Of a stretch of DNA of 44,936 nucleotides, positions 4,731-13,436 are shown in pieces. A program made the position numbers and the translations under genes. Under the pieces are notes generated by a model, which searched no databases, was not told the origin of the DNA, and worked only from the letters and a program-made list of their open reading frames with translations. Source of the DNA: a virus; the IMG/VR virus record IMGVR_UViG_3300028595_000021, positions 1-44,936 of that record; one strand, 5' to 3'. Within the stretch, counting starts at the first letter, position 1. Each line of letters opens with the position of its first letter.

Positions 4731-4936
4731 TCGCTTTTCCTCCTGTAGATAAACATGCCACGGTTGAATAATCGGCAAAGGACGCTTCCCGGCAAATTGA
4801 TCATAAACGCCGCTGGCTTTGGATTGGCCCAATTGGTTCCAGGCACCACAACAGCCTCTTTCCTCTGCGCACTGGCATGTAAGTCATTAAGGTCGTGGAT
4901 TCTATTCTCCCAATTGTACTTAACAACTCTGTCCAT
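4724..4936 (-). CDS. Hypothetical protein, 70 aa
   Basis: The ATG at 4936 overlaps the stop of the replication protein (TGATG arrangement) and shares its GGAG site. The protein has an N-terminal helix and a basic C-terminus (CRLFNRGMFIYRRKSEW). The frame is kept open between two tightly coupled genes, which is the main support. No family or function is recognised. Confidence 0.55.
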   Translation of the reverse strand: MDRVVKYNWENRIHDLNDLHASAQRKEAVVVPGTNWANPKPAAFMINLPGSVLCRLFNRGMFIYRRKSEW

Positions 4937-5805
4937 CACATCTCCTTCCCGGCAAAGGCCTTCTCAAAAACCTTCTCAAGCTCCTTCGGCATAGGCCTCG
5001 CCGACTTGACCATGCAGTCATAGCACTCACCCTCTGCATGGACGGGTTTGTTGCAACCTTCATGCTTGCACCTCTCGACCTTCTTCGCTGCGCCACCATT
5101 GGTGGGGTCCTTCGGCATGATCCCCCTCTCCTTCATCGAGTCCGCCACCCAACCAACCAGTGCATGGTAATCCGACTTGTACTTCTTGCCGGTGCGCATC
5201 TTGTAGTTGTTCAGGAACTCGATCATCTCAGGAGCAACGTCACCCCACTTCGCATTGAGCTGCTCATACTGCTGGTCAGTCAAGTAGACGTCATCGAGGT
5301 AGCGTGTTTTTTTGTCTCCCTTCTCTTCATCTTCCTTTCTATTCCCTTCCTTTCCCTTCAGGGATACCTGTTTGTCACGTGTAGCAAACACGGCCCCCTC
5401 CGGGAGTTTACTCTCATCAACACTATAGGATGCTCTCTTACGGTTGCCGGTTTCCTGTATGCTACAGTTAAGCCACGGCGGAAGTGGAAGACTGGGCGGA
5501 GGAGGGTTCCTCAGGATTTGATGTTTGTGAAAGTTTTTCAGCCACAAATATTGTTTCCCGTTGACTTCATACGGGATAACCTTGCCATGTTGGCAAAGCG
5601 TGTTAAAGGTGTTCTCTATGTCCGTCACGGACGCCTTGAGCGCTCCACACTGAAGCTTGAAGTCCGGTGGATAATACTCAAGGCAACCGCTGTCCTCGGC
5701 CAGCATCCATGAGATAAGATAGAGGTGCAGGCCGGTGTTACCGATGGCCTCCTGCAACCGGGAGTCCTGGTAAAGCTCGATATTCACCATCCTCTTTTTG
5801 CTCAC
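4936..5805 (-). CDS. Phage replication initiation protein
   Basis: The protein has 289 residues, starting at ATG 5805 with a four-base overlap to the regulator upstream. The N-terminal ~100 residues (IELYQDSRLQEAIGNTGLHLYLISWML and a following WLKNFHKHQ strand) look like the winged-helix domain of phage replisome organisers. A low-complexity charged linker (about residues 140-165) follows. Then comes a DnaD/replisome-organiser-like helical segment (EFLNNYKMRTGKKYKSDYHALVGWV), and last a Cys knuckle (CKHEGC with CYDC near residue 265). Position right after a Cro-like gene mirrors lambda cro-O. With no polymerase or helicase in the window it most likely loads host replication proteins at an origin. 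The linker coding DNA is unusually purine-rich (5330-5367) and could hold the origin. Confidence 0.75.
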   Translation of the reverse strand: MSKKRMVNIELYQDSRLQEAIGNTGLHLYLISWMLAEDSGCLEYYPPDFKLQCGALKASVTDIENTFNTLCQHGKVIPYEVNGKQYLWLKNFHKHQILRNPPPPSLPLPPWLNCSIQETGNRKRASYSVDESKLPEGAVFATRDKQVSLKGKEGNRKEDEEKGDKKTRYLDDVYLTDQQYEQLNAKWGDVAPEMIEFLNNYKMRTGKKYKSDYHALVGWVADSMKERGIMPKDPTNGGAAKKVERCKHEGCNKPVHAEGECYDCMVKSARPMPKELEKVFEKAFAGKEM

Positions 5806-6011
5806 GATGCCCTCCTTATAAACAGGTCTTCAGGTTCAACGTCAAGGACCTCGGCCAGCTTGTACACCGTTGAAAGCTTTGTGCTGCCTTGCTTTAGGAT
5901 ATACTCTACGCCGGTCTTGGTCATCTCCAGCCGTTGTGCCAGGTCGAATGTTGTCATCCGCTTTTTAATAAGGATGCCCTCAATCATCTGCACGTTTAAT
6001 AATCGTTTCAA
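5802..6011 (-). CDS. Cro/CI-like helix-turn-helix regulator
   Basis: The protein has 69 residues. A TTG at 6011 lies eight bases behind GGGAGG; the in-frame GTG at 6020 would sit inside that ribosome site, and an ATG at 5987 is an alternative. The XRE-type fold is plain: MTTFDLAQRLEMTKTGVEYIL contains helices 2 and 3, and LSTVYKLAEVLDVEPEDLF is the classic closing motif. It is the first gene behind the leftward promoter, as Cro is in lambda. It probably binds operators in the 6012-6250 divergent region to set early transcription. No separate CI-type repressor with a dimerisation domain is present. Confidence 0.85.
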   Translation of the reverse strand: MKRLLNVQMIEGILIKKRMTTFDLAQRLEMTKTGVEYILKQGSTKLSTVYKLAEVLDVEPEDLFIRRAS

Positions 6012-6043
6012 GCGTATCACCTCCCTTAATAATATTTGAGAAC

Positions 6044-6071
6044 AGTATAACTACCTGATTTTGCATGTCAA
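6044..6071 (-). promoter_or_regulatory. Strong leftward early promoter (sigma70 type)
   Basis: On the minus strand a perfect TTGACA (6071-6066) and a TATACT (6049-6044) are 16 bases apart. Transcription would start near 6037, a few bases before the GGGAGG site of the regulator gene. It is the best promoter match in the window and probably drives the whole leftward early operon. Confidence 0.8.
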
Positions 6072-6177
6072 CAAGTTTTTCTTTACACTCTTGCCGCACC
6101 CATTCTCGCACTCCGTTGGGCTTAAACGCAACCGGCCACGCTTTCCGTTGGACGTAAGTTATTGAATAATGGGAGAA

Positions 6178-6207
6178 ATAAAAAAAAATAAAAAAAAATA
6201 AAAAAAA
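6178..6207. repeat. Phased A-tracts upstream of rightward promoter
   Basis: Three A-tracts of eight to nine bases are separated by single T residues at 6179, 6189 and 6199, an exact 10-base period. They end four bases before the -35 box at 6211. Phased A-tracts bend DNA, and A-rich sequence at this position acts as an UP element binding the RNA polymerase alpha subunit. An imperfect palindrome TTATTGAATAA lies at 6159-6169 and may be an operator. Confidence 0.65.
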
Positions 6208-6210
6208 CTG

Positions 6211-6239
6211 TTGACTTTCCCAAAAATATGAATTATTTT
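6211..6239 (+). promoter_or_regulatory. Rightward early promoter (sigma70 type)
   Basis: TTGACT at 6211-6216 and TATTTT at 6234-6239 are 17 bases apart. The A-tracts directly upstream would strengthen it. The predicted start near 6246 lies just before the first helix of the structured leader, so the RNA element would form the 5' end of the transcript. Confidence 0.65.
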
Positions 6240-6260
6240 GTAGTCGTTCTTTGACAATCT

Positions 6261-6613
6261 GAGTGGGTGGCCAGGCAAGGGAGGCCGACAAAATAAGCAC
6301 TTAAACCCGACCCACTCCAATAACGAAGCCGAGCAGGAAACCGGAAGGGATGGGCAGCCCTGAAGATTGAGGGGGCGAGACAACAAGGCAGGCCTAAGGG
6401 CGAAGGAAAGGCAAGGCGAGCGATACCGCAGCGGCAAGAAACCTACGGTATGAGTGCGGAGTCCATGCCGAACCACAACGGGGTGCGATCCCGGCGAAAA
6501 GAATCGCATGTTCCATAGGGCTTCCAAAGTGTGAGAGCAGGCTGACCTCACCAATCCGATCCCCTTGGGTCAGAGGGCAGGCGGATGGTGCCTGGGCTTT
6601 GGCGGCCCTATGG
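6261..6613 (+). ncRNA. Large structured leader RNA, unknown class
   Basis: No credible gene lies between 6240 and 6640, but the RNA folds strongly. Visible helices: GAGTGGGT 6261-6268 with 6310-6317, enclosing GGCC 6269-6272 with 6283-6286; ATACCG 6423-6428 with 6446-6451; TGCGAT 6484-6489 with 6503-6508; and CCATAGGGC 6513-6521 with 6605-6613 (nine perfect pairs), continued by CCAAAG 6524-6529 with 6597-6602. The last helix encloses GTGAG 6531-6535 with 6547-6551 and CAGGC 6578-6582 with 6590-6594. It lies between a promoter and the first gene, and its last helix ends 23 bases before the AAAGGAGGG site. I see no match to tmRNA, RNase P or a known riboswitch. It could be a cis-regulator, an antitermination RNA like HK022 put, or a stable RNA. 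The fold is seen in sequence; the role is inference. Confidence 0.6.
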
Positions 6614-6650
6614 AGCATCAAACAACCATCAAATAAAGGAGGGAACAAAA

Positions 6651-6890
6651 ATGGCAACAATGATCCAATGGGAAGACAACATCGCAACACTGAGCGATGC
6701 GGAACTGGCAGGCGTATCAAGCGCTCTCGAAGACCTTAAAAGCTGGGATCTCTTCGAGGGAGAGCATAACTATATGGGGACCCTTCGAGCCATGGTCAAC
6801 CACGAAGAGACCAAAAGGCTCCTGGCAAGGCATGACGCTCAACTGGCAAGCGTGAGCGCCTTTTGCGATAAAATTTTCAAGGAGGTGTAA
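6651..6890 (+). CDS. Hypothetical protein, 79 aa, first gene of rightward operon
   Basis: ATG 6651 follows AAAGGAGGGAACAAAA; the longer frame upstream runs through the leader RNA helix and has no ribosome site. The protein is soluble and helical (DAELAGVSSALEDLKSWDLF, then a helix-rich C-terminal half), acidic at the N-terminus. It is separated from the next gene by one base. I recognise no family. Being first behind the promoter it should be expressed very early, the usual place for host-takeover proteins. Confidence 0.75.
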   Translation: MATMIQWEDNIATLSDAELAGVSSALEDLKSWDLFEGEHNYMGTLRAMVNHEETKRLLARHDAQLASVSAFCDKIFKEV

Positions 6891-6891
6891 C

Positions 6892-7179
6892 ATGGAACTA
6901 CTTCACCGTTTTGATTGCGGATGCATCGGCATCCCTTCCGGTCAACCCAAGCCTGGACCTGGCAAGACCATGGTTCAGGAGGCCCTGTGTTTTATGGTCT
7001 GTGATCGGGCAGACTATGATGACAGCCCCTACGTCCTGTGCGTCAGGGACTTGTTCGTTGACAAGGCGGCCCCTGTGCCGCTGAGTAAGGAGGCAAGTAA
7101 TAACCTCCTTAACCATTTCAACCTTGCCATCGCCAAGTCAGAGGCAATCGATAGCCTCAAAAGGGTGATGGCCCTTTAG
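6892..7179 (+). CDS. Hypothetical protein, 95 aa
   Basis: ATG 6892 is behind AAGGAGGTGTAAC. The N-terminus has a cysteine pair (FDCGCIGI) and further cysteines at CFMVCDR, which could bind a metal. The C-terminal half is a long helix (EASNNLLNHFNLAIAKSEAID). The stop TAG at 7177-7179 is followed at once by a GAAAC-containing RNA element (7182 on), so translation termination and that RNA fold are linked in space. No family is recognised. Confidence 0.75.
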   Translation: MELLHRFDCGCIGIPSGQPKPGPGKTMVQEALCFMVCDRADYDDSPYVLCVRDLFVDKAAPVPLSKEASNNLLNHFNLAIAKSEAIDSLKRVMAL

Positions 7180-7181
7180 CC

Positions 7182-7295
7182 GAAACGCCGCCGCCTCCTT
7201 CGGGAGTGGGGCATGGGAGCGGATATTTACGGCCCACAATGTTGCGTGCCAAATACAGCTATGGCTAGGAATCCGTGCGGCGGCTTAAGTAATGA
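7182..7295 (+). ncRNA. Possible degenerate hammerhead-like RNA
   Basis: Directly behind the TAG at 7179 lies CCGAAACGCC, the same 5' motif that opens the hammerhead at 9778. An eight-pair helix joins 7187-7194 to 7277-7284 as stem III would. Inside are a CTCC-TTCG-GGAG hairpin (7197-7206 region) and GCGGAT 7219-7224 pairing with 7271-7276. The 3' side continues with TTAAGTAATGA, where UAAUGA could be a decayed remnant of CUGAUGA, and CCCTT 7172-7176 can pair with AAGGG at 7295-7299. A normal stem I is missing. It is structured RNA with high likelihood; catalytic activity is doubtful. Confidence 0.4.
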
Positions 7296-7309
7296 AGGGA
7301 GGTGATCAC

Positions 7310-7324
7310 ATGCGTCCGGCCTAA
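7310..7324 (+). other. Mini-ORF in front of hammerhead ribozyme
   Basis: GGGAGG at 7297-7302 is seven bases before ATG 7310, and the frame Met-Arg-Pro-Ala ends at TAA 7322-7324. The same frame also has an ATG at 7292. The stop codon lies four to six bases before the ribozyme stem II strand (7328-7330), so a terminating ribosome would cover it. This suggests a translated leader peptide that gates the ribozyme; translation itself is not shown. Confidence 0.35.
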
Positions 7325-7327
7325 AAA

Positions 7328-7391
7328 GTCGAAACGCCCCCCTGACCTCAGGGGGCGTAGTACCAGGGTGGCTCCTGGTGCCTGATGAGAC
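7328..7391 (+). ncRNA. Hammerhead ribozyme 1 (type II, stem II open)
   Basis: All core positions match the hammerhead consensus. GAAAC at 7331-7335 gives G12-A13-A14-A15.1. Stem III pairs 7334-7341 with 7351-7358, ending in U16.1, and A7359 is the cleavage-site H17 (a GUA triplet). Stem I pairs 7360-7367 with 7374-7381 (eight pairs, one G-U) around a GTGGCT loop. CTGATGA at 7382-7388 is the C3-A9 strand. Stem II pairs G7389-A7390-C7391 with 7328-7330. Cleavage would fall between 7359 and 7360. Loop I GGCT can pair with AGCC at 7392-7395, the kind of outer contact that gives such ribozymes full speed. GGC at 7318-7320 can extend stem II. It lies 50 bases before the ribosome site of the ParB-like gene, so it would split the early transcript between two genes. 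The motif is seen directly; activity is inferred. Confidence 0.9.
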
Positions 7392-7445
7392 AGCCTTTGT
7401 ACATCAGAACCGCCACAACCCACATCACATATAGGAGGAAGAAAA

Positions 7446-8372
7446 ATGGCAAATAAAGTAAAGGTACACAGGGATTCTATTGAAATGTTTTGGGACGACA
7501 ATATCGTGTGGATTGAAGTCAAAACATTGAAGGGGATGGGCAGCAAGTTTCAGCGTAACATTGAGAGAGTCCGCAAGAACAAGCTGATAGAGTCCATGAA
7601 AGCAGATGGCTACTGGGTGAGCAGTCCAATCACTGTCAACCAGGATTTTCATGTTGTAGACGGCCAACACAGGGTTCTTGCGGCACTTGAATTAGGAATA
7701 GAAAAGGTGCCTGCTTTCGTTGTGAACTACGGAAGCGAAAAAGATGAAGCCGCACACTTTTCGACCCTTAGCGACTGGAACACAAAACTTAAAACCAAAG
7801 ATTACTGGGCGGCCCGAAAGGCTCATGGTGACCCTGTGGCCGAAGTTATCTACGCCCTAAACCAAGACCTCGCCAGCTTGATGCACCACGATATCCAATT
7901 GAAAGAGAATGTTCCGGGGGCAGGTCGCAAAGGACAGAGGTGGCAAATTACTGATGCGCTTCACTTCATCAAGGCGGGATTGGGCCTTAAAAGTCCGTGG
8001 GCGAGGGCCACGCACCACACTTGGTCTTCCGCAATTAAAAACATTATCGACGAGGAAGGCAAGGCTTCCATTGTCGGTTATGTGAACTTGCCAGTCAACT
8101 TTTGGAATGCCACTTTCGGGACCACCAGAGATGCTTCAACGAAAGACATTTACACAGGAACCCATGTCGCAGCATACTGCGAATTCTACTCTAAGCTGCT
8201 GATGGCTGGACTGCTTAGGACCAAACACCACTGGGACTCAGTCATCAGCAAAATGAAAACCTTTAACTACAGCTCCCCTATTTATAGAAGCTGCCATAAG
8301 CGATACGATAAACTGGGATTTCTTGTGGTACACTATAACAAGGGTAGAACGACCAGGAGAATTGAACTTTAA
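7446..8372 (+). CDS. ParB/sulfiredoxin-like nuclease-domain protein
   Basis: The protein has 308 residues from ATG 7446, behind ATAGGAGGAAGAAAA. The ParB-like core lies at about residues 40-100: a helix with KLIESMKADG, then SPITVNQDFHVVDGQHRVLAALELGIEKVP cited here in part. The DGQHR is the nucleotide-binding motif of the ParB/sulfiredoxin fold (GEHR in classical ParB). The C-terminal 200 residues are helical, with Trp-rich segments, and match no family I know. Phage members of this fold act as nucleases, DNA-binding modulators or enzyme-like regulators; a partition role would need a ParA, which is absent. It is the first gene after the first hammerhead ribozyme, so its mRNA should start with a 5'-OH end if cleavage occurs. 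Confidence 0.75.
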   Translation: MANKVKVHRDSIEMFWDDNIVWIEVKTLKGMGSKFQRNIERVRKNKLIESMKADGYWVSSPITVNQDFHVVDGQHRVLAALELGIEKVPAFVVNYGSEKDEAAHFSTLSDWNTKLKTKDYWAARKAHGDPVAEVIYALNQDLASLMHHDIQLKENVPGAGRKGQRWQITDALHFIKAGLGLKSPWARATHHTWSSAIKNIIDEEGKASIVGYVNLPVNFWNATFGTTRDASTKDIYTGTHVAAYCEFYSKLLMAGLLRTKHHWDSVISKMKTFNYSSPIYRSCHKRYDKLGFLVVHYNKGRTTRRIEL

Positions 8373-8407
8373 CGAGGGGAAAGCAAGCTGAAAGGAGGTA
8401 GCAAAAA

Positions 8408-9184
8408 ATGGGATTAATGGCACACTGTAACACCACGTATGTGGATGAGGCAGAGGTAAGGGCCGTCGAGGCCCCTGAATGGACAGACACATGGCACCCG
8501 GTAGCACACGGCATGGTCCTGGACGCTGCGGCTGAGGCCGTATCATCCATCGGCCTGAACGTAGTCAAGGCCGAGTACAGCCTGAGCAAGACCGGAGGCC
8601 GCATGTTCGGGTTTTGGGAATTGGACCATCGGACCAACGGCAGCAACTGGTCCATCGGGCTGCGCAACTCCATTGATAAGAGCATGGTCCTCGGAGTGTC
8701 CGGGGGCCTCAAGGTTTTTGTGTGCGACAACATGGCGCTGTCTGGCGACTATATCGAGTTTCACAAACACACGGCAGGCCTGGATCAGGAGAGGGTCGCC
8801 AGGATGTTTGTGGCTGCCATGGCGCAGCTCATCGATCAGCTCGATGCGTTTACGAAATGGCACGGTGCGCTGAAGCACATGCCCCTCACCCCGGAGGAGT
8901 TTGCACGCATGACCTACGAGGGAATGAAGGCCGGTGCTTTTGCACCCAGGCAGTTCAACGGTTTTCACAATGCATACGATGAGGAGGTCCTGCTCTGTGA
9001 AAAGGATCAGGACGCTGCCAGCGGCCAGACGGTTTACTCCTGGCACGGTGCAGTCACCAGGCTGATGCGAGGCGAAAGCATGTTTTCGGTTGCCAAGAAA
9101 AACACGGCGGCCAACAATGTCATCAAGGACCACATCAACCGCCAGGGATACCAGCTTATCCCTTGGCTCGAACGGCCCAAATGA
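8408..9184 (+). CDS. DUF932-like protein
   Basis: The protein has 258 residues and a ribosome site AAAGGAGGTAGC before ATG 8408. It has the pattern of the DUF932 (phage/plasmid LGT) family: TWHPVAHGMVLDAAAEAV near residue 27, a strand-rich centre with MFGFWELD and WSIGLRNSIDKSMVLGVSGG, then VFVCDNMALSGDY and a helical C-terminus. Members are common in phage and plasmid early regions next to single-strand annealing and ParB-like genes, as here, but their biochemical role is unknown. The gene overlaps the next one by four bases (ATGA). Confidence 0.7.
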   Translation: MGLMAHCNTTYVDEAEVRAVEAPEWTDTWHPVAHGMVLDAAAEAVSSIGLNVVKAEYSLSKTGGRMFGFWELDHRTNGSNWSIGLRNSIDKSMVLGVSGGLKVFVCDNMALSGDYIEFHKHTAGLDQERVARMFVAAMAQLIDQLDAFTKWHGALKHMPLTPEEFARMTYEGMKAGAFAPRQFNGFHNAYDEEVLLCEKDQDAASGQTVYSWHGAVTRLMRGESMFSVAKKNTAANNVIKDHINRQGYQLIPWLERPK

Positions 9185-9357
9185 GTGAGTCACGGGAGGA
9201 CCGTGCATGGCAAAGGATGAGATACGATAACCTTAAGAGGGTGCAGGAGAGCGGCAGTCACGCAGAGGCTGTGCAGCGCCGAGTGTCCAGGCATGTGGGG
9301 GCCGTGAGGGTATCCACCAACGCCGATGGTTGTGGGAAGACCACACCCGGCTCGTAG
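9181..9357 (+). CDS. Small basic protein, 58 aa
   Basis: ATG 9181 overlaps the upstream stop in an ATGA; the frame ends at TAG 9357. The protein is rich in Arg and Ser, with a helical first part (EDRAWQRMRYDNLKRVQES) and a Gly/Thr-rich end, so nucleic-acid binding is possible. The 64 bases that follow hold only the AAAGGAGG site of the next gene. Support is the translational coupling, not similarity. Confidence 0.5.
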   Translation: MSESREDRAWQRMRYDNLKRVQESGSHAEAVQRRVSRHVGAVRVSTNADGCGKTTPGS

Positions 9358-9421
9358 CCGTCTGCAATCGGTGCCTGTAGAAGCGGTTACCCCCATGCTA
9401 ATCCAAAAAGGAGGAATAAAA

Positions 9422-9775
9422 ATGGAAGATGGACTCGGAACCACACACGTGGGAACAATCGCAGGGATCAATGGTCACCCTATGAGCGGATTGTGGATGC
9501 TTACATTCGAAGACGGGACCGTTGTTCACATCGCAAGCGGCTTTGGCGTTCGCAGCTTGGCCGCATGCTTCGGAGCAAGGGAGGGCAGCGGCGACCTCAT
9601 GGAGAAAATCCAGGGACAGAAAATCGTTTACACGGCTGACCCCTTTAACGTCATGGAGATGTTTACCCTTTATGATGAGTGGGTGGACATGTACCCCGAC
9701 TTTGAAATTCCCTTTGAAGGGATTGACAACGAGGAGTTAACAGAGGAGTTCAGGAGGTTGGGCTATCTTGATTAA
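9422..9775 (+). CDS. Hypothetical protein, 117 aa
   Basis: ATG 9422 follows AAAAAGGAGGAATAAAA; the longer frame upstream overlaps the previous gene and has no ribosome site. The N-terminal half is strand-rich (HVGTIAGINGHPMSGLWMLTF), and the C-terminal half is acidic and helical (EGIDNEELTEEFRRLGYLD). No known family is recognised. The stop TAA at 9773-9775 is two bases before the first stem II base of the second hammerhead ribozyme, and the last codons may form its outer stem. Confidence 0.75.
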   Translation: MEDGLGTTHVGTIAGINGHPMSGLWMLTFEDGTVVHIASGFGVRSLAACFGAREGSGDLMEKIQGQKIVYTADPFNVMEMFTLYDEWVDMYPDFEIPFEGIDNEELTEEFRRLGYLD

Positions 9776-9777
9776 AG

Positions 9778-9893
9778 CCGAAACGCCGGGACAATAAGAC
9801 ACACCAGAAGCCTGAGTAGGCCGCAAGGTACGAAAGGTAAGCCTGGTGCGCACACCGGCGTCATCGCAGCGTGGCGGCTGCGGTCTGATGAGG
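9778..9893 (+). ncRNA. Hammerhead ribozyme 2 (type II, stem II open)
   Basis: GAAAC at 9780-9784 supplies G12 to A15.1. Stem III pairs 9783-9789 with 9855-9861 and ends in U16.1. C9862 is H17, so the cleavage triplet is GUC and cleavage falls between 9862 and 9863. Stem I pairs 9863-9870 with 9877-9884 (eight pairs, one G-U) around a GTGGCG loop. CTGATGA is at 9885-9891, and stem II starts with G9892-G9893 pairing with C9778-C9779. Stem III has a large insert: CACCAG 9802-9807 pairs with 9843-9848, and GCCT 9810-9813 pairs with 9818-9821. Loop I TGGC can pair with GCCA at 9895-9898, matching the contact in ribozyme 1 with changed bases. The element sits between a stop codon and the AAAGGAGG site (9908-9915) of the next gene. 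Confidence 0.88.
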
Positions 9894-9923
9894 AGCCAAA
9901 TAAAATTGAAAGGAGGATTTACC

Positions 9924-10565
9924 ATGTACGTACCAGACACACTCAACAGACTTAACAAGGAGGAGGTTGACAAGGTGGCAGCAAGACAGACCGATTGTGA
10001 CTACTGCGGCTTTGACACCGAGGACGCAAACTACAATGATGGGCAGGGTCTTCGCATTCTAGAGGTGTATAACCCTGCGGACGAGGTCCGGGACCCACCG
10101 ATCACGGGTTTTTACACCGTGGATGTCATCTGCGATGACTGCTACGACCAAGGTCGGCACATGGAGGAGCGGTTCTACTGTTCTGCCTGCGGAAGACTGT
10201 TCATCTACAACCACTCATGGGATGTCGTTGCTGTGACCGATCACAGGACCGGCGAACTCTATTGCCAGAAGTGCTACATCGATGAGGTCCTGGAACCGAT
10301 AGATTTGGGACAGGTGCTTGTCGATTTGGAGAATGGCAACGTGGACGGCTGGAAACGGATCAACGGTGTCCCCGGCAAAGAGCTGCTTTGGGAAGGCGAG
10401 TTCAGCCAGTACAGCGACTTTTCCGGACACACAAATTTCACCTCCATCAGGGACGCCGTCTCTGAAGCGATGGAGGAGGACGGCTACGACCTGAACACGC
10501 TGGTGTATCCGCTGATCACCCACGGGTATCAGTTCAGCGTAGCCCTTGGGGTGTACGTTGAGTAA
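9924..10565 (+). CDS. Multi-zinc-finger hypothetical protein, 213 aa
   Basis: ATG 9924 follows AAAGGAGGATTTACC. Cysteine pairs are regularly placed: CDYC near residue 25, CDDC near 71, CSAC near 86 and CQKC near 115. This is enough for two zinc-ribbon units in the first 120 residues. The C-terminal ~90 residues resemble a small alpha/beta domain (FTSIRDAVSEAMEEDGYDL). No catalytic motif is visible. It is the gene directly downstream of the second hammerhead, so its mRNA would carry the cleaved 5' end. Function is unknown; nucleic-acid binding is plausible. Confidence 0.75.
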   Translation: MYVPDTLNRLNKEEVDKVAARQTDCDYCGFDTEDANYNDGQGLRILEVYNPADEVRDPPITGFYTVDVICDDCYDQGRHMEERFYCSACGRLFIYNHSWDVVAVTDHRTGELYCQKCYIDEVLEPIDLGQVLVDLENGNVDGWKRINGVPGKELLWEGEFSQYSDFSGHTNFTSIRDAVSEAMEEDGYDLNTLVYPLITHGYQFSVALGVYVE

Positions 10566-10809
10566 CGAGCGCCCCGGCTTGGCATGGGTAGACCCGCAAA
10601 CTGCAAAGATCGGCGGCAAGGTTGTCGAAGTGCCTGGAAAGTATGCACGCCAGCGGTACTTTTGGGCCTTCGAGGAACTGGATGACGGCAACGTCATCGT
10701 CTACCCTGTCAACGCCAACCCGGTTGAGTACATCGAAATCCCGAAAAAACTCGTTTGCAGATGGCCCATATTCAGGGGGCAGGAGGACACCGATGAAGCT
10801 AGACATTAG
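10558..10809 (+). CDS. Hypothetical protein, 83 aa
   Basis: No ATG is available. TTG 10558 overlaps the upstream stop (TTGAGTAA), with a GGGG seven bases before, and an earlier TTG at 10546 is less well placed. The small protein is strand-rich (KIGGKVVEVPGKYARQRYF, EELDDGNVIVYPVN) and may be a small beta-barrel. It overlaps the exonuclease gene by 17 bases. The frame stays open within a compact operon, which supports it as a gene. Confidence 0.55.
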   Translation: MSNERPGLAWVDPQTAKIGGKVVEVPGKYARQRYFWAFEELDDGNVIVYPVNANPVEYIEIPKKLVCRWPIFRGQEDTDEARH

Positions 10810-11689
10810 GCCGCTGCCTGGAAAGGTGATGGCGCACAGGCTGCCCCCGGAACCTGGGTTCTACCGCTGCAACGAGGAGGTTTACTTCGGGTTGCCGGGA
10901 GCAAATGCAAGCACGTTAAAGGTACTCCAGAAGAAGACGGCAGGCCATGCTCATGCCGCCGAGACCAAAGCATTTCAGGAAAGCATCACGCCCAAGCAAG
11001 CGACCGCCGCCCAGGAGTTCGGGACGGCCTTTCATTGCAGGCTTCTGGAGGCAGAGCGGTTCGACCGCACATATATTCGGGCCGACTATACACGAACCAA
11101 AAAGAAAAAGGAGGAGGCAGCCGAGCTAGACCAGCGTCTCCTCAAGGCCGATGACTACGACAAAGTCACGGCCATGGTGAGGGCGGCCTTCACTCAGAGT
11201 GATCAGATGAGGGCCTTGTACAAGAAAGGTCAATCCGAAATATCCATGTGGTGGATCGATCCCCACACCGGCATCCTCTGCAAAGGACGCCTGGACTGGT
11301 GGTCTGTGATATTCGACATCCCGGTTGATGTCAAGACAGCGGAGAGCGCTTTGCCGTTTGACTTCAGCAAAGCCATCGCCAACTATGGGTATCACATATC
11401 CGCCAGGCATTACCTGGACGGACTCCAGGAGTTGCTCGAAATGGAGATCAATGATTTCATCTGGTCGGTACATGAAAAAGAGGAGCCGTACCAAGTGGCC
11501 TTGTACCGGGCCGACAAGGAAATGCTGGATGAGGCCGAGATTGACCTCCGCCAACTCAAAGAGGAGTACAGGGAGTGCCTGGACAAAGACGAATGGCCTC
11601 TGTATCCTGGCGACCTGACCGACATCAGCCTGCCAGGATGGGTCAAGAGGAAAAAGCACCGGGATGCCTTTGACATCCCATCACCATAA
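10793..11689 (+). CDS. RecE-like PD-(D/E)XK exonuclease
   Basis: The protein has 298 residues. The start at ATG 10793 has AGGAGG with seven bases between; the long upstream frame is spurious. It matches the DUF3799/RecE-type domain. An N-terminal helix with STLKVLQKKTAGHA and FGTAFHCRLLE carries the His, and the core GRLDWWSVIFDIPVDVKTAES provides the Asp and D-x-K of the metal site. YHISARHYLDGL gives the downstream Gln/His-Tyr helix. These enzymes chew 5' ends of double-stranded DNA to give 3' tails that the RecT protein pairs. The recT gene follows 13 bases downstream, so this is a two-gene recombination system. Confidence 0.85.
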   Translation: MKLDIRPLPGKVMAHRLPPEPGFYRCNEEVYFGLPGANASTLKVLQKKTAGHAHAAETKAFQESITPKQATAAQEFGTAFHCRLLEAERFDRTYIRADYTRTKKKKEEAAELDQRLLKADDYDKVTAMVRAAFTQSDQMRALYKKGQSEISMWWIDPHTGILCKGRLDWWSVIFDIPVDVKTAESALPFDFSKAIANYGYHISARHYLDGLQELLEMEINDFIWSVHEKEEPYQVALYRADKEMLDEAEIDLRQLKEEYRECLDKDEWPLYPGDLTDISLPGWVKRKKHRDAFDIPSP

Positions 11690-11702
11690 AGGAGGTAGAG
11701 AA

Positions 11703-13379
11703 ATGACTGACGAAAAAGCTTTAACCAAAACCAACGGTGAGCGAAAGCCCATCAACATCGACATCAGCAACGGCATCCGGCCAAGCTCCTATGATGAGCT
11801 TATGCAGTTTGCTGCGCTGGTGGATCGCAGCGGCCTGGTCCCTTCCACCCTGGCCAAGGGTGGTGTACCGGCCATTGCCATGGCCTTGATCTCCAACCTG
11901 GAGGCAGGGCGCAACATGATCCTGGGCCTCCAGGACATCGCCGTGATCAACGGTAAGCTCAGTGTGTACGGTGACGGCGTCCTGTCCATGATCAGGGGCA
12001 GCGGCCTCTTCGATGAGGAGGCCTTCGAGGAGTCTGAGTCCGGCGAGTTCCGGCAGCCCGGATGGACCTTCAAGTGTACCGTCCGGCGGCTCCCCAACGG
12101 CAAGCCCAAGACCGGCGTGTTTACCTGGCAGGAGGCTATGGCCGCCGGGTTCGACAAGATCAAGGAGCCAAGCCCGTGGGCTAGGTTCCCCAGGCGGATG
12201 ATGGTCTGGAAGGCAAGGCAGTGGGTCCTGCGTGACACCTTCGGGGATATCCTTCGGGGATACAAGATCGCCGAGGAGGCCATGGACATGATCGACCTGG
12301 AAGAGGTCGAGGGCCGGTACGAGGTTGCAAAGGAACCTGGCGACAACCTGGGAGATGTTTTGACCCAGGTCGGTCGGAAGGAGGAGGTTCACCTGCAAGG
12401 CAGCATGGAGGTTCCGAATGAGCAGCCTGAGGTCAGCGATGGGCCTCGATCCATAGAGCCGGATGACGGGTTCGAGCAGGGGAAGGGCGAGACCGAGATC
12501 GTTGAGCCTGAGAACACCGGCGAGGTCCTGGCTGTCAAGCCGGGAGAGAAAACCGACTACGTCTTTGGCAATGAGAAGTTTGTCCTCGACGCTGAAGAAG
12601 CCCAAGCCAAGGTCAATAAGCTCAAGACTTCAGGCATCCTGGCTTTCTTCCACAATAACCATGACGGCATCCACCAGTCGGTCAAGGTGTTCGCCCAGGC
12701 CAAGTTTATGAAGCTGCACAAGGCTGATCCGCCTCCGTTGCAACCGATCCAGGCCGGTGGCGATGCCACCCCTGACCCTGAAGCAAGCCTGGAGAAGGAG
12801 GCCCCGAAGGGTGACGGCACTGACATGTTGCCCTGCCCCAAGAAAGGCGGAGCGAATGTAATGACCAAGGCCTGTGACAAGCTGTGTAACTCGTCAGATA
12901 CGTGTGAGGTATACCAGAGCTACCTTGGTGACGAGAAAGTCGATCCTGAGGCCGATTTGGAAGCCCAGGAGCCTGTTTCGGAGAAAGAGCCGGTGTCATC
13001 CAAGCTGATCGAGTGTGACAACTGCGGGAACCTGGAGGAAATGCCCATAGACAAGGATCCTGCGCTCGTGGTTTGCCCCAAATGCCAGGGACCCATGGCC
13101 AATCCTTTGCCCCCAGGAGGCCCAAACCTTAACGAGGCTGGCACTTCACGGGATAATGCGGGGGAACCTACGCAACAGGACTTCCTGGCCAAGATGGAGG
13201 AGTTTAGGGACCACCTTGGCAAAGCAAAGTACCAGATGGTGCTGATGGCTCAATACCGGGTGAAGGCTGCGGAGGACCTCAAGGAAAAAGAGTGGGGTTC
13301 TGTGCTGGAGTCTCTTAACACCCAGGCTATAAACATGGATATCGAGCCGCTGGACATTGATGCTTTCATCCCGTTTTAA
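11703..13379 (+). CDS. recT: RecT-family annealase with long zinc-ribbon extension
   Basis: The protein has 558 residues from ATG 11703, behind AAAGGAGGTAGAGAA. Residues 20-220 are a RecT single-strand annealing domain: MALISNLEAGRNMILGLQDI and INGKLSVYGDGVLSMI, then an FTWQEAMAAG segment and WARFPRRMMVWKARQWVL cited in part. RecT proteins are usually 250-330 residues. Here ~300 more follow: an acidic linker, a Cys cluster (MLPCPKK, CDKLC, DTCEVY near residues 385-415), and a clear zinc ribbon (C438/C441 and C458/C461) before a helical tail. The extension may bind DNA or a host protein. With the upstream exonuclease it would repair and join phage ends or copy foreign genes. It is the last gene before the terminator. 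Confidence 0.85.
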   Translation: MTDEKALTKTNGERKPINIDISNGIRPSSYDELMQFAALVDRSGLVPSTLAKGGVPAIAMALISNLEAGRNMILGLQDIAVINGKLSVYGDGVLSMIRGSGLFDEEAFEESESGEFRQPGWTFKCTVRRLPNGKPKTGVFTWQEAMAAGFDKIKEPSPWARFPRRMMVWKARQWVLRDTFGDILRGYKIAEEAMDMIDLEEVEGRYEVAKEPGDNLGDVLTQVGRKEEVHLQGSMEVPNEQPEVSDGPRSIEPDDGFEQGKGETEIVEPENTGEVLAVKPGEKTDYVFGNEKFVLDAEEAQAKVNKLKTSGILAFFHNNHDGIHQSVKVFAQAKFMKLHKADPPPLQPIQAGGDATPDPEASLEKEAPKGDGTDMLPCPKKGGANVMTKACDKLCNSSDTCEVYQSYLGDEKVDPEADLEAQEPVSEKEPVSSKLIECDNCGNLEEMPIDKDPALVVCPKCQGPMANPLPPGGPNLNEAGTSRDNAGEPTQQDFLAKMEEFRDHLGKAKYQMVLMAQYRVKAAEDLKEKEWGSVLESLNTQAINMDIEPLDIDAFIPF

Positions 13380-13398: not shown

Positions 13399-13436
13399 AA
13401 AAGCCCCCCAGGTCTTCGGACTTGGGGGGCTTTTTT
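13399..13436. terminator. Bidirectional rho-independent terminator
   Basis: A stem of about 16 pairs (AAAAGCCCCCCAGGTC at 13399 on, against GACTTGGGGGGCTTTT) closes on a TTCG loop and is flanked by an A run on the left and T6 on the right. It lies between the convergent ends of the rightward operon (13379) and the leftward late operon (13458) and should stop both. Confidence 0.92.

Follow-up and report, generated by a model that had tools for sequence, protein, structure and literature searches.

Tandem type II hammerhead ribozymes between genes of a phage early operon and their possible role as gene-boundary cutters

Results

Organization of the locus

The window analysed here is the whole 44,936-nucleotide stretch of DNA of an IMG/VR virus record (IMGVR_UViG_3300028595_000021), in which the head, connector and terminase genes are carried on the minus strand. 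A leftward block with a replication initiator is followed by a rightward operon (Table 1), which opens with two small open reading frames (ORFs) for which no family match was found in Pfam, PHROG or NCBIfam, and which runs through a ParB-like gene to two recombination genes, exonuclease VIII-like and RecT-like, with matches to phrog_412 (5.9e-67) and phrog_561 (9.7e-14). For a ParB N-terminal nuclease-like domain, ORF 7446-8372 has PHROG matches to 1.6e-9 and falls below the Pfam and NCBIfam cut-offs; because the match is to PHROG only, the term “ParB-like”, used in an earlier sequence-only reading of this DNA, is of the right strength. The rightward transcript is probably ended by a hairpin followed by a run of T, a pattern match of a kind no commoner in this region than in shuffles.

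The region 5000-12000 gave no DNA match in annotated phages. No close relatives of the ParB-like, 9924-10565 and exonuclease proteins were found in viral contigs, nor any of the ParB-like protein in genome contigs, and the sole viral contig with a relative of the 8408-9184 protein (L123) gave no Rfam hammerhead match. Two hammerhead ribozymes lie inside this one co-directional operon, with genes led by Shine-Dalgarno (SD) sites on either side, and the locus thus has the tandem mRNA-processing arrangement of prophages, in which at least two same-strand hammerheads flank co-directional operon genes.

Table 1. Features of the rightward operon and its surroundings (positions in the window).
Feature	Position	Strand	Remarks
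Replication initiator, leftward block	4936-5805
Rightward operon	6585 to ~13430	+
Two small ORFs, operon head	6585-6890, 6892-7179	+	Left on 5' cleavage fragment if cut
Probable dead hammerhead	7178-7298	+	13-mer AGCCGAAACGCCG at TAG 7177-7179 of ORF 6892-7179
Four-codon ORF	7310-7324	+	ATG CGT CCG GCC TAA; strong SD GGGAGGTGATC; ends 3 nt before ribozyme 1; from sequence alone
Hammerhead ribozyme 1, type II	7328-7395	+	RF02276, own descriptor, fold z-score
Ribozyme 1 stem II	7328-7330/7389-7391		3 bp, open; sequence
Ribozyme 1 stem III	7334-7341/7351-7358		8 bp, closed by loop; sequence
Ribozyme 1 stem I	7360-7367/7374-7381		8 bp, closed by loop; sequence
Ribozyme 1 core	7331-7334, 7358, 7359, 7382-7388		GAAA 7331-7334 (G12-A13-A14, A15.1), CUGAUGA 7382-7388, U16.1 7358, H17 = A7359
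Ribozyme 1 C11.1-G10.1 pair	C7330-G7389
Ribozyme 1 predicted cleavage	between A7359 and G7360	+
Ribozyme 1 predicted pseudoknot	7370-7373/7392-7395	+	GGCU (loop I) with AGCC (3' tail); 4 bp, sequence
ParB-like gene	7446-8372	+	phrog_1033 ParB-like partition protein, 1.6e-9; would be first gene of 7360-9862 RNA
Conserved phage protein gene	8408-9184	+	Relatives: 87-kb viral contig, 38% identity; Microcoleus phage My-WqHQDG, 32%
Small ORF	9422-9775	+	Would be last gene of 7360-9862 RNA; stop abuts ribozyme 2
Hammerhead ribozyme 2, type II	9776-9901	+	RF02276 55.1 bits, descriptor
Ribozyme 2 stem II	9778-9779/9892-9893		2 bp, open
Ribozyme 2 stem III	9783-9789/9855-9861		7 bp, closed
Insert in ribozyme 2 stem III loop	9790-9854	+	65 nt; CACCAG/CUGGUG stem, inner hairpins
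Ribozyme 2 stem I	9863-9870/9877-9884		8 bp, closed
Ribozyme 2 CUGAUGA core	9885-9891		H17 = C
Ribozyme 2 predicted cleavage	between C9862 and A9863	+
Ribozyme 2 predicted pseudoknot	9872-9875/9895-9898		UGGC with GCCA; 4 bp, sequence
ORF without assigned family	9924-10565	+	On 3' fragment if cut
Exonuclease VIII-like gene	about 10622/10682-11689	+	PHROG; on 3' fragment if cut
RecT-like annealing protein gene	11664-13379	+	PHROG; on 3' fragment if cut
Terminator-like hairpin and T run	13410-13432	+	Pattern match

Hammerhead ribozyme 1

The ribozyme at 7328-7395 is a real hammerhead, of type II by sequence, structure and covariance model. The Rfam Hammerhead_II model (RF02276) matches 7327-7399 over its full extent (1-66) with 51.4 bits, against a gathering cut-off of 37 bits, and with E = 8e-8 when the whole window is compared with 4,227 families. 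Our own descriptor of core plus stems scores the same element at 20, whereas 2.5 Mb of control sequence, reversed or complemented, yields two matches only, the best at 11, and the fold z-score is -2.5. The sequence-only reading had proposed the covariance-model search, which thus returned the family it foresaw; each core base that it named was found in its place when checked base by base, as were stems I and III of eight pairs and an open stem II of three. The cut it predicted, just ahead of the ParB-like gene, does lie on the rightward early transcript, 86 nt upstream of the start at 7446. Missing from that account were the pseudoknot, the second ribozyme at 9776-9901, the probable dead third copy and the odd A at position 17.

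This A17 is one of three departures from the norm. Among 77 non-redundant copies in the matches listed (see below), position H17 is C in 74, U in two and A in ribozyme 1 alone. The distance to the start codon is 55 nt, and a CAUCAG downstream of the ribozyme (7402-7407) is complementary to the CUGAUG of the core, the whole spanning 7382-7407. The best nested fold with the CAUCAG hairpin reaches -40.2 kcal/mol as against -31.0 for the ribozyme fold with its pseudoknot left uncounted, growing-chain folds favour the alternative from 7407 onward, and the hairpin, once transcribed, is predicted to form in competition with the active fold. Taken together, A17, the distant start and the hairpin suggest that this may be a slow, switchable or more regulated copy. 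As a general feature, however, the core-sequestering hairpin was rejected, since core-complementary 6-mers follow only four of the 77 copies in the matches listed, which is about chance. The four-codon ORF immediately upstream would be either a leader ORF or the leftover of a deleted gene.

Hammerhead ribozyme 2

Ribozyme 2 lies on the same strand as ribozyme 1, has the higher score (55.1 vs 51.4 bits) and begins directly 3' of the TAA (9773-9775) of ORF 9422-9775. Both copies have the core, the open stem II, the closed stems I and III and the above-cut-off RF02276 score of the type II class.

The insert in stem III of ribozyme 2 can fold on its own (z = -1.6). No Rfam family matched it, and its centre had no exact match among the viral contigs. 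A long-loop pattern search for similar inserts gave mostly chance matches, those in three contigs (L131, L137 and L144) looking genuine; in L131 a type II hammerhead carries a branched stem III insert, and the 7-mer which it has in common with the insert of ribozyme 2 is not significant. A nested degenerate hammerhead within the insert (CUGAGUA ... GAAA) was considered and dropped, several core positions being broken.

A probable dead third copy

Apart from 9776, where it opens ribozyme 2, the 13-mer AGCCGAAACGCCG has a single further occurrence, at 7178. There it leads into a possible stem III (7185-7194/7277-7286) with nine of ten pairs formed and one mismatch, a match reached by 784 of 20,000 shuffles, followed by an A and by GUAAUGA (7289-7295), which resembles a decayed core lacking stem I. 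The stretch 7178-7298 gave no Rfam match and has neither an intact core nor a stem I; it is probably the remnant of a type II hammerhead. As the SD site and the four-codon ORF stand between it and ribozyme 1, the simplest reading would be a ribozyme-gene-ribozyme array that has lost its first ribozyme and its gene to decay.

The orphan 5' half (7178-7190) and the 3' half of ribozyme 2 (9856-9901) could form a complete type II hammerhead across 2.6 kb, with a 6-bp stem III and a 2-bp stem II. Such a long-range hammerhead is unlikely in the cell, and the pairing of the two halves suggests recombination between copies.

Placement of type II hammerheads in viral contigs

A pattern scan of viral contigs, blind to stop codons and SD sites, gave at least 120 stretches; in these and the window the descriptor identified, among the matches listed, 152 type II copies, which form 77 non-redundant clusters, the window's own accounting for two. 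In 64 of the 75 other copies listed, an open frame of 40 or more codons has its stop codon within 12 nt of stem II, as compared with 9.6% of random positions, and in 23 of the 75 this stop abuts or overlaps stem II. Similarly, a start preceded by an SD site follows stem II at 8-40 nt, with a mode of 15-19, in 61 of 74 listed copies (random, 13.6%). Random positions are a lenient background for both comparisons, the ordinary gene boundaries of compact operons being a stricter one. The few listed copies without an adjacent long frame showed no recurrence of SD-led mini-ORFs.

Loci in the matches listed carry from one to ten copies. All copies share a strand in each of the 31 multi-ribozyme loci, spaced 247-5,722 nt apart with the exception of one pair at 68. 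One array, in IMGVR_UViG_3300017605_000570 (L031, 2817-6749, minus strand), has about ten type II hammerheads in about 4 kb, at nearly every boundary in a run of small genes, and those listed exceed the Rfam cut-off; in another contig (L083) two near-identical copies of 74.1 bits occupy different gene boundaries. The order of stop, ribozyme and SD is seen in named phages too: in LESphi4 one CDS ends at 7989, the hammerhead occupies 7989-8059 and the next CDS starts at 8076, whilst the placement in the RcWaterboi and RS1 phages and that of the nine type II hammerheads of Streptomyces phage R4 (NC_019414.1, 41776-49461; L124) agree with the same plan. In R4 the annotated mini-genes gp75.1 and gp67.1 fall on hammerheads, and the annotated starts of gp76, gp77 and gp72 run through hammerheads; the annotation there is therefore probably wrong.

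GemA, Mu-type transposases and host-nuclease inhibitors recur just downstream of the viral-contig hammerheads, and many carriers are thus Mu-like transposable phages. A recurrent linkage to ParB was discarded, as no ParB-like family appeared downstream of 59 other type II copies among the top 25 PHROG families and all the Pfam families listed.

Discussion

Perreault et al. (2011; PMC3088659) described hammerheads of type II with their pseudoknot, together with tandem copies on either side of prophage genes and the idea of mRNA processing; these tandem copies, the proposal and the cleavage data were overlooked by the sequence-only reading. In that study fast cleavage of type II forms required the pseudoknot of loop I with the 3' tail, three tandem arrangements cleaved in vitro and one did so in E. 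coli; spliced and circular products were sought and none detected, and no function was established for the tandem prophage hammerheads, so that the sequence-only reading's statement on this point still holds. The text of PMC3088659 makes no mention of stop codons, ribosomes or Shine-Dalgarno sites. In the open-access literature we found neither a description of stop/SD geometry for phage hammerheads nor another paper on prophage hammerheads of type II. The phage reported here is an added case of type II hammerheads, and any novelty may lie in the quantified geometry.

Like the RF02276 hammerheads of bacteria and prophages, the copies in the window have an open stem II of 2-3 bp, closed stems I and III, an intact core and a candidate pseudoknot of loop I with the 3' tail, and they stand in tandem around phage genes. 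They differ from the usual members in the A17 of ribozyme 1, where C is usual, the 65-nt insert of ribozyme 2 and the probable dead copy upstream.

The folds, positions and strand of the ribozymes are observed, as is the general geometry, and we infer from them that cleavage occurs in the cell: the two active-looking, cis-cleaving type II hammerheads are likely to be gene-boundary cutters in the rightward early transcript. Each would fold as RNA polymerase passes and then cut itself once, after A7359 and after C9862, turning a polycistronic RNA of roughly 7 kb into three mRNAs, namely a leader-side piece, a 2,503-nt RNA (7360-9862) which would carry the ParB-like gene plus two further genes, and a 3' piece bearing the recombination genes. 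Since both helices flanking the cut are closed in the type II form, stem III would end the upstream mRNA as a hairpin with a 2',3'-cyclic phosphate, and stem I, with a 5'-OH, would start the downstream mRNA just before its own ribosome-binding site. Such ends may be protected, the 5'-OH and hairpin from decay that depends on a 5'-monophosphate and the 3' hairpin from exonucleases, and translational coupling across the boundary would be broken, so that the stability and translation of neighbouring gene blocks would become separate. A cut between stop and SD takes nothing away from the genes on either side, and this favours a processing or insulating role over signalling or the making of RNA circles.

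It is a further and rather doubtful step to propose that stop, ribozyme, SD and start form a dedicated boundary device, in which cleavage is coupled to termination of upstream translation and both products are protected by hairpins. A ribosome that terminates at a stop 0-12 nt ahead of stem II would sit over the 5' half of the core, and the ribozyme could fold only when termination is not under way; cutting might then be gated by the ribosome, or otherwise switchable, and report on upstream translation. We regard such gating or switching as unlikely. The stop-codon adjacency in 64 of 75 listed copies fits it, although this may only reflect the compact packing of phage genes; at ribozyme 1 the SD-led four-codon ORF ending 3 nt upstream and the core-pairing CAUCAG hairpin, preferred by growing-chain folds from 7407 on, would add control, but the core-complementary 6-mers number no more than chance gives, and mini-ORFs were not recurrent in the few listed copies noted above. 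If the proposal is true, the structured stem III insert and the core-sequestering hairpin would make these natural regulated hammerheads, either allosteric or ribosome-gated.

Other readings give cleavage a lesser or a different part. The hammerheads might serve mainly as shared DNA boundaries at which homologous recombination swaps single genes, cleavage then being a secondary matter or a by-product. Near-identical copies at several gene boundaries of one genome, as in L083, fit this reading, as do the non-homologous genes between copies and the third-copy remains beside the four-codon ORF, which resemble a gene lost between two copies; a mere linker would, however, need neither the catalytic core nor stems I and III, all of which are kept across copies, and we think it improbable that exchange is their main purpose. 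Similarly, selfish or neutral intergenic insertions of no present benefit would account for a probable dead copy beside live ones and for a number per locus which varies from 1 to 10 in the matches listed, but would be expected neither to share a strand in 31 of 31 listed multi-copy loci nor to be placed so precisely after a stop and ahead of an SD across a large non-redundant set; this reading is very improbable. Hammerhead cleavage leaves 5'-OH and 2',3'-cyclic phosphate ends which are suited to ligation, for example by RtcB. The 2,503-nt RNA, bounded by two same-strand hammerheads and bearing such ends, might thus be ligated by ribozyme or RtcB into a circle. However, each type II end keeps only a partial ribozyme, so that joining would have to reassemble one from parts of two different copies; inter-copy spacing is highly variable in the matches listed, and neither spliced nor circular products were found by Perreault et al. 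(PMC3088659). We hold circularisation to be very improbable.

Cutting at gene boundaries remains the favoured explanation. For the role of phage hammerheads, a question since 2011, the stop-ribozyme-SD geometry makes the processing idea sharp and testable; if cleavage does set mRNA ends and uncouple translation, these elements would be natural 60-nt insulators between genes.

Paired hammerheads of types I or III are also found in retrozymes and viroid-like circular RNAs, which are circular RNA replicons. As in the window, two hammerheads bound an RNA there, but the window shows no hint of replication or circularisation. The HHphage of haloviruses HF1 and HF2 is a hammerhead variant 13 nt upstream of the start codon of an early gene (PMC3088659). 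Both are thus found shortly upstream of the start of an early phage gene; HHphage, however, is a structural variant before a helicase gene, whereas the window has a standard core before a ParB-like gene and before one of no assigned family. Cultured carriers exist in Streptomyces phage R4, with nine copies, and in Mu-like Pseudomonas, Rhodobacter and Rhodovulum phages, with one; these belong to other lineages and carry other genes than the window, yet they have the same ribozyme family, gene strand and placement between stop and SD.
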